Below the pieces are notes generated by a model. That model ran no database searches, had not been told where the DNA came from, and saw only the letters and a list, made by a program, of their open reading frames with translations. From the NCBI RefSeq assembly GCF_003813775.1, contig NZ_RPDH01000001.1:868001-932000 (forward strand): a stretch of DNA of 64,000 bases, in the 5' to 3' direction. Shown here piece after piece: positions 46,405-52,337 of this stretch. The first letter of the stretch is position 1; each line of letters opens with the position of its first letter. Source of the DNA: Chitinophaga lutea (lineage in GTDB: Bacteria > Bacteroidota > Bacteroidia > Chitinophagales > Chitinophagaceae). A program made the translations under genes and the position numbers.

Positions 46405-47823
46405 ATGTCCCCATTCAAAACTATATGCCTGCTGCTGCTACCCTTCCTGGCCCAGGCACAGGATACGGAAGAAAAAATACGCCAGGTGGAAAACGGCCTT
46501 TCCGCCTGGGTCACTTTCGATAGCGTGGCGCCTACCCGCGGTAACATCCTGCAACGGATGAAAGACCATACGGTACAGGGCGTCAGCATCGCCGTGATCC
46601 GCAATTACAAAATCGACTGGGCCCGCGGCTATGGTTTTGCGGACGTGGAAGAAAAGCGGCCCGTCACACCGCAAACGCTTTTCCAGGCGGCTTCCATCAG
46701 TAAATCGATCAATGGCGTGGCCATCCTGAAACTGGTGGAACAGGGCAAACTGCAACTCGACGCGGATATCAATCAATACCTCAAAACCTGGCACCCGTCG
46801 GCCGACTCGGGAAAAATCACGCTGGCGCACCTGCTGAGTCACACGGCGGGGCTCACCGTCCACGGGTTCCCGGGATATGAAGTAACGGATACGCTGCCCA
46901 CCGTGGAGCAAATCCTCAGCGGCAAACGCCCCGCCAATACCAAAGAAGTAAAACCGGCCTTTGCGCCCGGCAGAAGAATGCAATATTCCGGCGGCGGCAC
47001 CACCGTCACCCAACTCATCCTCACGGGCGTTACAGGCGTGCCGTACGACAGTTACCTGCAAAAAGAAGTGCTCGACCCGATGGGCATGAACGGCAGCTCC
47101 TACACGCAGCCCGCGCCTGCCAATAAAAAGCCGCTCCTCGCCACCGCCTACTACGAAAACGGCAAACCGGTGAAAGGTAAATATCACGTGTATCCGGAAA
47201 TGGCGGCGGCCGGCCTGTGGACCAACCCCACCGACCTGGCGAAATACATCATCGAAACACAGCTCTCCTACGAAGGCAAATCGTCAAAAGTGCTTTCGCC
47301 GGCCATGACGAAAACAAGGCTCACACCGTTCCTGAACACGGAATCCGCACTGGGCGCATTTATTGTCAAAAAGAAATATTTCAGCCACAACGGGAGCAAT
47401 GAAGGTTTCAGCTGCGTCTACATCGGCAGCCTCGAAGGGGGCAACGGTTTTGTGATCATGGTGAACGGTAATGCCAACGGCCTCATCCAGGAAATCTCCC
47501 GCAGCATCGCTTCGACTTATGGATGGACGGATCTCATCCTGCAACCCACTGTCAAAAAACTGGCGCAGCAGCCGGCCGACAGCCTTCCCCGTTTTACAGG
47601 AAAGTATGGTGCGGGCAAAGATGTGCTGACCGTTACACAGCAAAACGAACGCCTGTATCTTTCAGTGAACGGCAGCAATCCCATGCAACTGTATTTCAAC
47701 GATCCCACCCATTTTGTATTAACGGAAGTCCCCGGTGATCTGCGGTTCGATAAAACAGCGACGGGATACGACATTATGGTGAAGCAAGGCGGCTGGGAAC
47801 AACGGTTTGCAGCAATTAAATAG
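46405..47823 (+). CDS. Secreted serine hydrolase of the beta-lactamase/penicillin-binding family
   Basis: A 472-residue protein with a signal peptide (LLLLPFLAQAQD) and the class C-type SxxK motif Ser97-Ile-Ser-Lys100 in LFQAASISKSINGVAILK. It continues with LLSHTAGLTVHGFPGYE, the YSG motif at Tyr194 (GRRMQYSGGGTTVTQLILTG), and a late SHNGSNEGFSCVYIG, the HxG-like third motif. The last 100 residues form a separate beta domain (FTGKYGAGKDVLTVTQQNER). Such proteins are D-aminopeptidase, esterase or peptidoglycan-acting enzymes; resistance to beta-lactams is not implied. It is transcribed alone. Confidence 0.9.
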   Translation: MSPFKTICLLLLPFLAQAQDTEEKIRQVENGLSAWVTFDSVAPTRGNILQRMKDHTVQGVSIAVIRNYKIDWARGYGFADVEEKRPVTPQTLFQAASISKSINGVAILKLVEQGKLQLDADINQYLKTWHPSADSGKITLAHLLSHTAGLTVHGFPGYEVTDTLPTVEQILSGKRPANTKEVKPAFAPGRRMQYSGGGTTVTQLILTGVTGVPYDSYLQKEVLDPMGMNGSSYTQPAPANKKPLLATAYYENGKPVKGKYHVYPEMAAAGLWTNPTDLAKYIIETQLSYEGKSSKVLSPAMTKTRLTPFLNTESALGAFIVKKKYFSHNGSNEGFSCVYIGSLEGGNGFVIMVNGNANGLIQEISRSIASTYGWTDLILQPTVKKLAQQPADSLPRFTGKYGAGKDVLTVTQQNERLYLSVNGSNPMQLYFNDPTHFVLTEVPGDLRFDKTATGYDIMVKQGGWEQRFAAIK

Positions 47824-48066: not shown

Positions 48067-49077
48067 TCAAAACGTTTCACATCCCGCGCACAGCGCCAGT
48101 TCCTGTTTGCGGCCCTTCAGCAGCAATTCGAGGTACTGCGTTCTTTCGCGGCCCTGGTAGATGTCGACCACATCTTTCTGCCAGATGTTGCCGATCACGC
48201 CTTTTGAATTCAGGTCGCTGCAGCAAACGGTGATATCGCCGTTGGGAAGCAGCACCAGCTGTTTCATCAGCATGCTGCAGCCTATCTTGTGTTTCTTTTC
48301 CCGCGCACTCACATCCACCTCGCCGGCCCAGTTGTGCAGGCGGCGCAGTTCGTACCAGTCGAGCAGCCGGTACAGCTCGCGGAACTCCGGGTGCATCCAG
48401 CGGATGTGGAGAGGCTTGTCGTGCGGAATGCACGAAATGGCGTAGATCTTCGTTTTGCTCCCGGTTGTTTTGACGATCTGATGAAAGGCCCGCACGTTTT
48501 CATGGAACTTGCTCCACACGGCATTGGTGCGCATTTCCTCGAACAGCTCCGGCGTGCCGCCGTCGAAACTCACGCCCACTACATCGATCACGTCGAGATG
48601 AATGATCTGTTGCGAAAGGCTTTCCCGCAGCAGCATGGCATTGGTGAGCATGCGCACCTGGGGGAAACGTTTTCCCAACCTGGCGGCTTCCGTTTTATAT
48701 TTTTTGATCACTTCCAGCATCTCCACCCGTTTGGGATGCAGCAGGATTTCCCCGCCGTTGTGCAGGTTGATCACTTCGGTCTTGCGGAAACGGTCGTCGC
48801 GGATCAGCTGATCCAGGAAACGTTCGAGCGTTTCTTTGCTGATGGTTTCTTTCGGTTTGAAATGATCGAGGGAACAGAATTTGCAGCGCAGGTTACACTG
48901 GCTGGCAAACTCGATATTGATCTCGCGCAGGCTCAACCGGCCGCGGTGGCCGGGCAGTTTGTAGTAGTAATAATAGTCGGCCGCATAAGCAAGTCCCTGC
49001 ATGGTCTCGATCATTTTCCACACAAGGGGGGTATGATAGAACCATTGTTTCAGATTTCTCCGGATGTTGACATACAT
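48067..49077 (-). CDS. Radical SAM/SPASM domain protein
   Basis: The ATG at 49077 (MYVNIRRNLKQWFYHTPLVW) is preferred to the one at 49110. About 336 residues. The radical SAM cluster motif is Cys61-x3-Cys65-x2-Cys68 in FASQCNLRCKFCSLDHF, followed by INLHNGGEILLHP and VGVSFDGGTPELFEEMR. The C-terminal SPASM-type Cys set is in HKIGCSMLMKQLVLLPNGD, ITVCCSDLNSKGVIGNIW and LCAGCETF. SPASM proteins modify peptides or small molecules with extra iron-sulfur clusters. No small substrate peptide gene was found beside it, so a role in cell-envelope or sugar modification is as likely as peptide maturation. Confidence 0.9.
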   Translation of the reverse strand: MYVNIRRNLKQWFYHTPLVWKMIETMQGLAYAADYYYYYKLPGHRGRLSLREINIEFASQCNLRCKFCSLDHFKPKETISKETLERFLDQLIRDDRFRKTEVINLHNGGEILLHPKRVEMLEVIKKYKTEAARLGKRFPQVRMLTNAMLLRESLSQQIIHLDVIDVVGVSFDGGTPELFEEMRTNAVWSKFHENVRAFHQIVKTTGSKTKIYAISCIPHDKPLHIRWMHPEFRELYRLLDWYELRRLHNWAGEVDVSAREKKHKIGCSMLMKQLVLLPNGDITVCCSDLNSKGVIGNIWQKDVVDIYQGRERTQYLELLLKGRKQELALCAGCETF

Positions 49078-49135
49078 AGTTAGGTTACATGGTTGTGATA
49101 TACAACACACAACCTGCCGCCGACCCTTATGCGCG

Positions 49136-50740
49136 TCAAAAATTTATCCGGTAAAAAATACTGACCTGCAACCCGACCCATGTTTTAACGTTCGATGCGG
49201 CGGTGCGTTCGTATGAATTGGAGATGGTATAGAGCGGTTTGACGGTGTACAGGGTTTTATCGTTGAGGCCCTGTGCGGCCGTACCGTGCTCGCTGAAACT
49301 GGCGGCTTTACCGTTCACATAATAAGTAGTGGCGAGATAGTTGAACACGGGCCCGGCGGACACCTTCCAACGGCGGCCCAGCCGTTGCTCCAGCTGCAGG
49401 CTCAGGCGGTGCAGGCTGCTTCTGGCTTCGAAGGTGCGGATGGAGTCGATCGCCACACCCGGACTGGTCAGCTTTCCCGTAGTCGCCTGCGCGTTGATCC
49501 GCCAGCCGCTCCGCAACGGCAGCATACCACCGAGCCCGTAGCGGAATCCGCTGCTGTGGAAATTGGTGCCCCATCCCGCCACCAGGTAAACATATTGCAG
49601 GCCCGCCATCACGGTCGGCTGAAAATACACCGCGTCGTCAGCCTGCACACCGGTCTGCAGAAGCCAGCGGGAATCGTCGTTGTACGCTTCCGGCGTATTT
49701 CCCGGGGCGATGAAACGGGCGATGCCGTCAACGATCAACCCGGGTTGCAGGAAGGGCTCGCTTCGCCCGATAACGGGAATGCTTTGCAGCGACAGGCCGG
49801 CCTTTCCGGAACCGGAAGGATTGCCGGCCTTATCTTCAGTTGTTGGTGTGGCAGGTGTATTTTTATCCGGAGCAGGTTGTACTCCTTTGTTGGCTACTGT
49901 TCTGTCTTTCAGCGAAGATGATGGTATTGTGGTGTTGCCTGCACCTTTATCTTTTGCGGCTGACGCCGGCTGTGCGTTTTTATTTGCGACTGTATTGTTT
50001 TTCAGTGACGCACCGGGTTGAGCCCCTTTGCCTGAAGCAAGACGTGCATCTTTATTGACAGCTGTTTTATCTTTTGGCTGCCGTGCATCTTTGCCTGCAA
50101 TAGGCGCTCCATCCTTGTTGGCGGCTGTTTTGTCTTTCAGTTGCTCTTCTCCTTTGTTTACAACAGGTTGTTCGTCCTTATTCGCAGCTGTTTTATCTTT
50201 TAATGGAGACCTTGTTTGTACGCCTCTGATGGGCGCAGGCCGTGCATTTTTATCAGCAACTGTTTTGTCTTTCAATTGCGCCTTCTTATCCGAAATGGCT
50301 GATTCTTCCCTTTTTGCAGCTATCTTCTCTTTTTCCGGCGCAGGCTGTCCCCCTTTCGCGGCCGTTTTGTCCTTTAACGATACGCCCGGCCGAACACCTT
50401 CAACCGTTTTATCCCCCTTCACCACAGCCGCTTTCCTGAAAATGATATGTTCTTTGTACACCGTATACCCCGCGCCGGTATGCTGTCTGATCAGTTCCAG
50501 CAACTCTCCCAGCGCATATTCCTTTTTTGTGAACGGCACCGGTAACGCAGCGCCCAGCGTGGCCGCATTGAACGAAAACTGATACCCGGCCTGCCTGTAC
50601 ACCAGGTGGCTGATCTCTTCCATTGAAAGCGAAGTAGCGGGGACTTTTATTTTTTTGACGAGGGTATTGTGCTGCGCCCGCAAACCGGCAGTCAGCAACA
50701 AAAGGGGCAGGATGATCATCAGTCGTTTACCGGCACTCAT
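49136..50740 (-). CDS. STN-domain outer-membrane protein with lysine-rich repeat linker and small barrel
   Basis: A 534-residue protein with four parts: signal (LPLLLLTAGLRAQ); STN domain at about 28-102 (KVPATSLSMEEISHLVYRQA); a 190-residue disordered Lys/Ala/Pro linker holding seven copies of LKDKTxANK-like units starting near 122, 156, 180, 201, 222, 246 and 277; and a C-terminal beta barrel of about 220 residues (FQPTVMAGLQYVYLVAGWGT, LHRLSLQLEQRLGRRWKVSA) ending in YRINF, a typical outer-membrane C-terminal signal. It lacks the TonB plug and is too small for a transporter. Its start overlaps the FecR stop by 14 bases in a sigma-FecR operon, so it is probably the sensor of that system. 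Confidence 0.8.
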   Translation of the reverse strand: MSAGKRLMIILPLLLLTAGLRAQHNTLVKKIKVPATSLSMEEISHLVYRQAGYQFSFNAATLGAALPVPFTKKEYALGELLELIRQHTGAGYTVYKEHIIFRKAAVVKGDKTVEGVRPGVSLKDKTAAKGGQPAPEKEKIAAKREESAISDKKAQLKDKTVADKNARPAPIRGVQTRSPLKDKTAANKDEQPVVNKGEEQLKDKTAANKDGAPIAGKDARQPKDKTAVNKDARLASGKGAQPGASLKNNTVANKNAQPASAAKDKGAGNTTIPSSSLKDRTVANKGVQPAPDKNTPATPTTEDKAGNPSGSGKAGLSLQSIPVIGRSEPFLQPGLIVDGIARFIAPGNTPEAYNDDSRWLLQTGVQADDAVYFQPTVMAGLQYVYLVAGWGTNFHSSGFRYGLGGMLPLRSGWRINAQATTGKLTSPGVAIDSIRTFEARSSLHRLSLQLEQRLGRRWKVSAGPVFNYLATTYYVNGKAASFSEHGTAAQGLNDKTLYTVKPLYTISNSYERTAASNVKTWVGLQVSIFYRINF

Positions 50741-51689
50741 TCCCGCTGATATTTATATCGTTCCCGTTGATGGTGTATTGGAGCCCCAGGGAAGCAGTGA
50801 TCACGTCCAGCACATACGCCAGCGGCTGCCCGTTGAAATCCGTGCTCAGCCGGCAGTCGCCGGTCTTTTCATTTGAAAGCACGATATTGACATTATATGT
50901 TTTAGCCACTTCACGCACCACATCGCGCAGCGGCGCGCCCTGAAAATGCAGTTGCTGCGTGGCATACGCGAACACATTTTTATCCGGCGCCGTTACCTCC
51001 GTCACGGTAATGGTATGACGTATCCGGTCGTAGCGGAGCTGCCGGCCGGCCTTCACGACCGTTTCCTCTGTGCCATGTTGCACCGCCACCGCGCCGTTGT
51101 TCACCTGCACCAGGATGTCGTCCGGCGCCGTACGGATGTTGAATGCGGTGCCCAGCACGCGGATGTGCAGTTCTTCCACCTGCAGCACAAAGGGGTTGTT
51201 TTCATCGGGCCGCACGTCGAAATAACCTTCTCCTTTGAGTTGCGCGGTGCGTACGCGGAAACGTTTATCGAACAACAGTTCGCTGCCGGGGGGCATCACC
51301 ACTACCGAACGGTCGGGCAGGGTATCGCGCAATATTGCCTGGTGAGACAGCAGTTGCGCCTGGTTGCTGCCGTGCGGCGCCCAGAGCAGGTACGCCAGCG
51401 CGATGCAGAGTACTGCAGCGGCGGCGGCCATCCACCATTTGACGGGCATGCGCCGCACCGGGCGCTGATGTTTCGCGGCAAAACGTTCCCATTCCGCCCG
51501 GGCGTCCGGCGCACGGTAGGCGGGAGCGCCCTGTTCCCAGGCCTGCTGCAGTTGCCGGAAGGTTTCCCGGTTGGCCGCGTCGGCATCCAGCCAATCGTCT
51601 ATGGCCATGGCTTCACCCGGACCGGCTTCGCCCGCCAGGTACCTGATCAGCAATGTTTCATCAACCGGTATGTATTCTTTATCGCTCAA
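50727..51689 (-). CDS. FecR-type anti-sigma factor (TTG start)
   Basis: A 320-residue protein with N-terminal sigma-binding helices (ETLLIRYLAGEAGPGEAMAI), a membrane helix at about 85-103 (WWMAAAAAVLCIALAYLLW), the FecR domain (LPDRSVVVMPPGSELLFDKR, GEGYFDV, PFVLQVEELHIRVLGTAFNI) and a C-terminal STN-like domain (LHFQGAPLRDVVREVAKTYN). No ATG precedes the conserved N-terminus: the frame opens at a stop six codons above TTG 51689, so TTG is the likely start. It follows the sigma gene by 10 bases and overlaps the next gene. It should pass the STN signal to the sigma factor. Confidence 0.9.
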   Translation of the reverse strand: MSDKEYIPVDETLLIRYLAGEAGPGEAMAIDDWLDADAANRETFRQLQQAWEQGAPAYRAPDARAEWERFAAKHQRPVRRMPVKWWMAAAAAVLCIALAYLLWAPHGSNQAQLLSHQAILRDTLPDRSVVVMPPGSELLFDKRFRVRTAQLKGEGYFDVRPDENNPFVLQVEELHIRVLGTAFNIRTAPDDILVQVNNGAVAVQHGTEETVVKAGRQLRYDRIRHTITVTEVTAPDKNVFAYATQQLHFQGAPLRDVVREVAKTYNVNIVLSNEKTGDCRLSTDFNGQPLAYVLDVITASLGLQYTINGNDINISGNECR

Positions 51690-51699
51690 AATGACAGTT

Positions 51700-52245
51700 T
51701 CAAATCAGCCAGGTGATCACCAGGAAAACAAGGTAGTCCTGCAGTTTCTCCCGCAGCACCCGCAGCGCTTTGCTCATCTGGGCTTCCACCGTTTTCACCG
51801 AAATATTCATCTCCTCCGCTATCTCCGCGTATTTTTTCCCTTCCCGCCGGCTCTTCAGGAACACCGCCCGGCATTGTTCCGGCAGCCCTGCGATGGCCGC
51901 TTCTATCCGCGCGCCCAGTTCCCGTTCCTGCAGCGCATCGGCCGGCAGGTGCCGGTTGTCCGCGTTGCCGGCGCGGTACAGCGCATACCTGCTTTTGCTC
52001 TTTTCCCGGCGCAGTTCGTTCAGGCTGAGATTGTGGATGCTCCTGTAAAGATAGCTTTTGATACCGCTGTCGTGCACAACCGGGTCTTTTTTCTCCCAGA
52101 GGCGGGTAAACACGGCCTGCACCATGTCGTTCGCAACGTCTTCATCCCGCAGCAGGGTATGGGCATAACGATGCAGCCTTTCGTAATGCTGCACGAAAAG
52201 TTCCCTGAAGGCCTGTTCAAACTTCTGCTGTTCCCTGTTACCCAA
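51700..52245 (-). CDS. ECF RNA polymerase sigma factor (TTG start)
   Basis: A 181-residue sigma-70-like factor with region 2 (RYAHTLLRDEDVANDMVQAV, FTRLWEKKDP, YLYRSIHNLSLNEL) and region 4 (IAGLPEQCRAVFLKSRREGK, IAEEMNISVKTVEAQMSKAL). Its C-terminal end, YLVFLVITWLI, is hydrophobic, common in Bacteroidota FecI-type factors. There is no in-frame ATG ahead of the conserved part; TTG at 52245 is the likely start, and the frame closes at a TAA ten codons further up. It heads a three-gene operon with FecR and the STN-barrel protein and presumably autoregulates it. Confidence 0.9.
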   Translation of the reverse strand: MGNREQQKFEQAFRELFVQHYERLHRYAHTLLRDEDVANDMVQAVFTRLWEKKDPVVHDSGIKSYLYRSIHNLSLNELRREKSKSRYALYRAGNADNRHLPADALQERELGARIEAAIAGLPEQCRAVFLKSRREGKKYAEIAEEMNISVKTVEAQMSKALRVLREKLQDYLVFLVITWLI

Positions 52246-52337
52246 AACTGACGATCGTTGCTGGTATGACTCAATTTACCCTATAACACCCATCCCCCGC
52301 TTCACCCTTACGTGCCGGGGAAAAATATTCCCGGTAC

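Follow-up and report, generated by a model that had tools for sequence, protein, structure and literature searches.

Cell-surface signalling through FecR-type anti-sigma factors is usually tied to TonB-dependent import. The FecI-FecR-FecA, PupB-PupR and FoxA-FoxR systems have in common an extracytoplasmic function (ECF) sigma factor, a FecR protein with an STN-like end and an outer-membrane partner that carries an STN domain, all encoded by neighbouring genes, and the locus described here shares these features. It lies in a 64,000-nucleotide stretch of the Chitinophaga lutea genome (RefSeq assembly GCF_003813775.1, contig NZ_RPDH01000001.1, positions 868,001 to 932,000 of the forward strand; this whole stretch is called the window, and positions are counted from its first base), and it consists of genes for an ECF sigma factor, a FecR protein and a sensor in which an STN domain is joined by a long linker to a small barrel. 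It differs from the FecI-FecR-FecA type in that no plug was found in the sensor and its barrel has 8 instead of 22 strands, and in that the next gene, which encodes an enzyme, carries its own copy of a promoter-like element. The system is a variant of FecR cell-surface signalling and not a TonB-dependent transducer, because such transducers are recognised by a plug and a 22-stranded barrel, and the sensor has 8 strands in 178 residues. With no plug and only 8 strands it should therefore carry out no transport, and presumably no TonB step. In this soil bacterium a small tethered barrel appears to control a dedicated sigma factor and one neighbouring enzyme gene in place of a large nutrient transporter.

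Two described systems are close analogues. In VreA-VreR-VreI (PUMA3) of Pseudomonas aeruginosa, as reported (PMC2729926), an STN domain off any transporter is likewise combined with a FecR-type regulator and an ECF sigma factor; VreA is a small protein with a TolA/TonB-like end, has no barrel and is mostly soluble, whereas the window sensor ends in a barrel, and in PUMA3 the sigma and receptor genes are linked while the regulator lies in another unit. Dma1 and Dma2, as reported (PMC13088901), are proteins with a barrel on a disordered tether that govern a sigma factor, and the window system resembles them in placing a sigma factor under a C-terminal barrel that hangs on a long disordered tether. 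A Dma protein is one chain (anti-sigma domain, transmembrane helix, tether and barrel) that acts on an ECF21 sigma factor, whereas here FecR and the STN-tether-barrel protein are separate gene products that must meet through STN; the likeness drawn here is one of layout. An earlier note on this DNA, made from its letters alone, had stated that it knew of no described system with this layout. For the exact order sigma-FecR-STN-tether-barrel this holds among the matches listed from titles and abstract beginnings of the open-access literature (subscription journals are mostly outside it), but VreA and Dma1/Dma2 come close to it. Beside the Dma proteins, the locus would represent a second solution, two chains instead of one, to the problem of relaying a signal from a barrel at the surface to a sigma factor. 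A family that has conserved STN and FecR but has no pore would show that the FecR pathway can run as pure sensing.

The three genes are all on the minus strand and tightly packed, and the sensor ATG lies within the 3' end of the FecR gene. The sigma factor (51700..52245, minus strand, TTG start) is a member of ECF Bacteroidetes family 1 (NCBIfam TIGR02985, 164 bits where the cut-off is 126.4) and contains Pfam sigma regions 2 and 4. The FecR-type anti-sigma factor (50727..51689, minus strand, TTG start) exceeds the Pfam cut-offs for FecR (1.2e-11) and for the STN-like FecR_C domain (2.9e-15), its FecR_C stretch also matches Pfam STN weakly (0.015), and a hydrophobic segment can be read from its sequence. 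The sensor (49136..50740, minus strand, ATG start) is 534 amino acids long. The order of ECF sigma, FecR and STN protein that the earlier note had read from the open reading frames is thus borne out by the family assignments, and the locus has the features of cell-surface signalling: an ECF sigma factor adjoining FecR, a FecR with an STN-like C-terminal domain and a partner with an N-terminal STN domain.

The window sensor itself has no meaningful match in Pfam or NCBIfam, so we assigned its domains from profile matches across its family together with a predicted model, and not from the window protein alone. Among 42 family members Pfam STN matches 9 (best 8e-4) and OMP_b-brl matches 22 (best 3.6e-5) at E <= 1, matches that are individually weak. 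The predicted model shows both domains. From the N-terminus, a signal peptide (about residues 1-22, 50675..50740, minus strand, recognised in the sequence, with the model giving a helix at 3-20) is followed by the STN domain (residues 24-108, 50417..50671, minus strand), a disordered linker (residues 109-356, 49673..50416, minus strand, net charge +14; model block means of 42-53 for residues 111-350) and an 8-stranded outer-membrane-type barrel (residues 357-534, 49139..49672, minus strand). At ~178 residues the barrel is smaller than the approximately 220 residues first proposed; the STN fold, the small barrel and the disordered tether are all present in the model. The earlier note had also argued that there is no plug and no room for a 22-strand pore, and had named a predicted plug or the lack of a barrel as the outcome that would count against it; the prediction gave a small barrel, and no plug family occurs among the 25 listed of the 28 Pfam families matched across the sensor family. 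Conservation across the family is strong in the barrel, where certain G, T, D and W positions do not vary. Sequence searches of solved structures with the whole family, the STN part or the barrel as query returned nothing meaningful, and fold prediction from the single sequence was uninformative. OmpA, OprF, OmpW, NspA and PagL have the same eight-stranded fold as the modelled barrel at 8-14% sequence identity, and none of them is known to have an STN domain. Identification of the sensor as a FecA-type transporter was rejected on the small 8-stranded barrel of its C-terminal part, and as a VreA-type protein on its having a barrel there at all.

Seven LK[DN][KNR]T-like strings (LKDKT four times, PKDKT, LKNNT and LKDRT; residues 122-281, 49898..50377, minus strand) stand in the linker, as the earlier note had seen, but they are not a conserved working element of the system: P0002, the closest homologue at 57% identity, has no KDKT string, and Tandem Repeats Finder reported no DNA repeat for the LKDKT array. 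Across 42 homologues the linker is 70-260 amino acids long and largely unconserved in sequence, and we read it as a probable tether of free length. Its basic character is real (net positive in 42/42 members), but the special contact with peptidoglycan or other polyanions proposed for it is not indicated, because the STN domain (39/39) and the barrel (38/39) are net positive too; after this control the basic linker was dropped as a special feature.

Is this module a peculiarity of one genome? The whole-protein homology search scored 7998 candidates and gave 3 matches, and a barrel-only search gave 4 including the window protein. Some match to the sensor is found in 68 of 79 genomes of the genus, part of these being STN domains of transporters (the STN-only matches fall in frames of 1100-1250 amino acids), and in 50 of the 79, counted from the match table, the match extends to the barrel. 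Of 40 same-genus loci chosen from that table for an operon check, 39 have the sigma, FecR and STN-barrel genes side by side. The exception, L063 (5645-6877, minus strand, genome G048), is an STN-barrel gene that has no adjoining sigma or FecR gene and that carries its own copy of the promoter-like element described below. Within the Chitinophagaceae 28 of 294 genomes, belonging to 17 of 101 genera, match the barrel profile. Leaving the window genome aside, we drew 20 loci from the other 27, of which 17 carry the short form and 3 a form of 616-630 residues, and all 20 have the sigma-FecR-STN-barrel genes. At the level of the order 15 of 248 genomes match the barrel. The operon order is thus conserved among homologues in the chosen loci, beyond what chance would give. 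Longer cousins of 574-630 amino acids with STN and a similar small barrel were also seen (L079, L080, L082 and L196-L198); the first three have GxQxxGxxN-like repeats between the two domains, and the last three sit in sigma-FecR operons.

Within its own genome (6.6 Mb) the module is rare. The FecR_C profile matches 73 places, about 61 of them in FecR-sized frames as counted from the table, and for 60 FecR genes we examined the longest frame behind FecR. In 54 this frame has at least 850 residues (47 of the 54 match the STN profile), in 5 it has neither STN nor this barrel and is not transporter-sized, and the single FecR gene with an STN-barrel partner is that of the window operon, which makes the sensor an unusual partner relative to the transporter-linked FecR genes.

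A promoter-like element, TAAGGGT-N14-GTGTTATA (52282..52310, minus strand), ends 36 bp before the sigma start, and a second copy, TAAGGGT-N14-GTGTTGTA (49101..49129, minus strand), begins 6 bp behind the sensor stop codon and ends 23 bp before the ATG of the next gene. Upstream of sigma, 31 of 39 operons have the strict pattern TA[AG]GGGT-N14-GTGT (0 when the same stretches are shuffled 200 times; 0 when they are reversed), and a variant with 15 bases and TTGT occurs in 3 operons; a lax pattern that admits near variants is found in 38 of the 39, only L034 being without it (shuffled mean 3.4 of 39; reversed 5). In five loci (L033, L045, L047, L051 and L065) the sensor stop codon is the TAA of the second element. 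Over the 79 genomes we counted 121 matches to the longer pattern TARGGGT-N14-GTGTNNTA, while its reversed control gave 52, a control rate of 0.66 per genome. Beyond the operons first chosen, 56 stretches were examined, covering part of the 121 matches. The window genome has 2 matches to it, both inside the sensor module; four more matches to the shorter pattern all fall within long reading frames (L083-L085 and L088), and these, with several such matches in relatives, were set aside. Matches to '...GTTGTACCAGGAGGTGT' (L123-L126), behind which no long frame opens on that strand, were for this reason taken to be coding sequence and set aside, and matches to TAGGGGT-N14-GTGTCNTA were not counted as targets because several precede other sigma/FecR operons (L142, L159, L162 and L163). 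Computation shows, then, that barrel, disordered tether and STN are in one chain and that the operon and its promoter-like element are conserved; the module is real, conserved and rare within its genome, and its output is directly testable.

The gene behind the second element, which like that element lies outside the coordinates given in the earlier note, encodes a radical-SAM/SPASM protein (48067..49077, minus strand; Pfam Radical_SAM 4.2e-13, SPASM 1.6e-8), the predicted output gene and a likely direct target of the sigma factor. Orthologues (E <= 1e-40) are present in 10 of the 79 genomes, and in the 9 where the position can be told the gene follows the sensor immediately; the tenth (G072) is at a contig end, and in G064 (assembly 65% complete) the gene is split over two frames and its placement is by coordinates alone. 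Five named records carry a relative of this gene: C. pinensis, C. deserti, C. rhizosphaerae and two Chitinophaga sp. A methyltransferase (Pfam Methyltransf_11, E <= 1e-30) is found in 15 of the 79 genomes, by coordinates directly behind the sensor in all 15, and at these thresholds it and the radical-SAM orthologue never occur in one genome. The element precedes the radical-SAM gene in 8/8 loci examined, the window included, and the methyltransferase gene in 7/8 (L042 is without it). In other genera the methyltransferase is behind the sensor in 5 of 20 loci (L179-L181, L186 and L187). In another clade a radical-SAM and Gfo/Idh pair adjoins the operon and points at it, with the element before the pair, in 7/7 loci (L037, L038, L040, L044, L049, L053 and L055), and in four further genomes the pair is far from the operon yet has the element (L127, L139, L148 and L157). 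At L034 and L035 the element is ~1.4 kb before a membrane glycosyltransferase-like gene (in L034 a weak Glyco_transf_22 match, 8.6e-6, with another gene between). Six unlinked sites (L119-L122, L158 and L170) precede an FAD oxidoreductase gene and one for a membrane protein; the PRK07208 model was scored for the L119 oxidoreductase only, and the membrane protein has no significant Pfam match. A di-haem MbnH/MauG-like gene is divergent from the sigma operon in 10 of 40 loci (L033, L036, L041, L045, L046, L050, L052, L054, L056 and L057), and the gene with the element near L063 is a 2OG-oxygenase by Pfam, L069 having a similar-looking gene with the element. One genome (G027, L032) has no output gene. 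On a tree of 39 sensors the output labels change 6 times, against 21.8 for shuffled labels, the tree having long branches and some unsure placements. The recurrent outputs (SAM enzymes, oxidoreductases and glycosyltransferase-like proteins) hint that a molecule at the surface is modified; the set is mixed, and the di-haem enzyme and the 2OG-oxygenase fit this less well.

How might such a module work? The layout and a role as dedicated sensor are very probable, and it is probable that the module as a whole is a cell-surface signalling system in which that sensor replaces the TonB-dependent transporter by the following mechanism. The barrel would sit in the outer membrane, the tether would span the periplasm and STN would pair with the STN-like domain at the C-terminus of FecR. 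In the resting state this pairing may keep FecR intact and the sigma factor bound. The precedent is FoxR/FoxA: the FoxA signalling domain is reported (PMC11637429) to be bound to the STN-like end of FoxR already ahead of the signal and to shield FoxR from proteolysis, and it is also cut off the receptor. By analogy the STN-barrel protein would hold FecR at rest and release it when the barrel is engaged or faulty. We hold this protective direction tentatively, at a little under an even chance. The cue at the barrel could be a ligand at the cell surface, or the outer membrane being damaged or wrongly assembled; it would alter the pairing, FecR would be cleaved and the sigma factor released, and the freed sigma factor would raise transcription of its own operon and, from the second promoter, of the radical-SAM/SPASM gene. 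Because the sensor has no plug, this step should be TonB-independent. Since the module brings its own output gene, its signal and its regulon can be tested directly in Chitinophaga with one reporter and one target. A further proposal, which we regard as speculative and rather doubtful, is that these systems form a TonB-independent signalling class in which the small barrel reads the state of the surface and the sigma factor turns on one dedicated modifying enzyme (radical-SAM/SPASM here; in sister clades a methyltransferase, a radical-SAM protein with an oxidoreductase, or a protein resembling glycosyltransferases) whose product alters the very molecule that the barrel reads, a feedback loop that would be re-aimed when sensor clade and enzyme are swapped together.

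The most serious competitor to a sensor of a specific cue is that the barrel belongs with small OmpA/OmpW-like channels or structural proteins and STN merely stabilises FecR, so that the protein monitors outer-membrane protein assembly and a failing barrel leaves FecR unprotected and the sigma factor on. The barrel is indeed of the common 8-strand kind, the linker is free in length (70-260 amino acids) and sequence, and in FoxR/FoxA a bound signalling domain is reported (PMC11637429) to protect the anti-sigma factor. Against this are the conservation of the barrel, with its invariant residues, and the tendency of sensor clades to keep their own output gene, and a specific cue is therefore suggested; we judge an assembly monitor unlikely, though still a reading to be reckoned with.

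That the locus is instead the remnant of a decayed transporter operon, one that lost its pore, acquired a stray barrel by fusion and no longer encodes a working sensor, is most improbable: the STN domain is one common to transporters (the matches in 1100-1250 amino acid frames) and G048 retains a lone sensor copy (L063), but barrel matches extend over 17 of the 101 genera of the family, the operon is intact in 20/20 and 39/40 chosen loci and the element is conserved. The second element and the radical-SAM gene could also be chance neighbours, with the sigma factor autoregulating only and its true targets elsewhere. Apart from the copy before sigma itself there is just one copy in the genome outside long reading frames, one relative, G027, lacks it, and the looser pattern otherwise matches only four times, inside long frames; yet such copies are met repeatedly just after the sensor, in front of the genes of two unrelated enzymes, the control rate is only 0.66 per genome and close orthologues, where they can be placed, are found only behind the sensor. 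We consider such a coincidence improbable, and prefer the radical-SAM gene as a target of the sigma factor. Elsewhere in the window, on the plus strand (46405-47823), is a gene for a serine hydrolase of the beta-lactamase family (PF00144).
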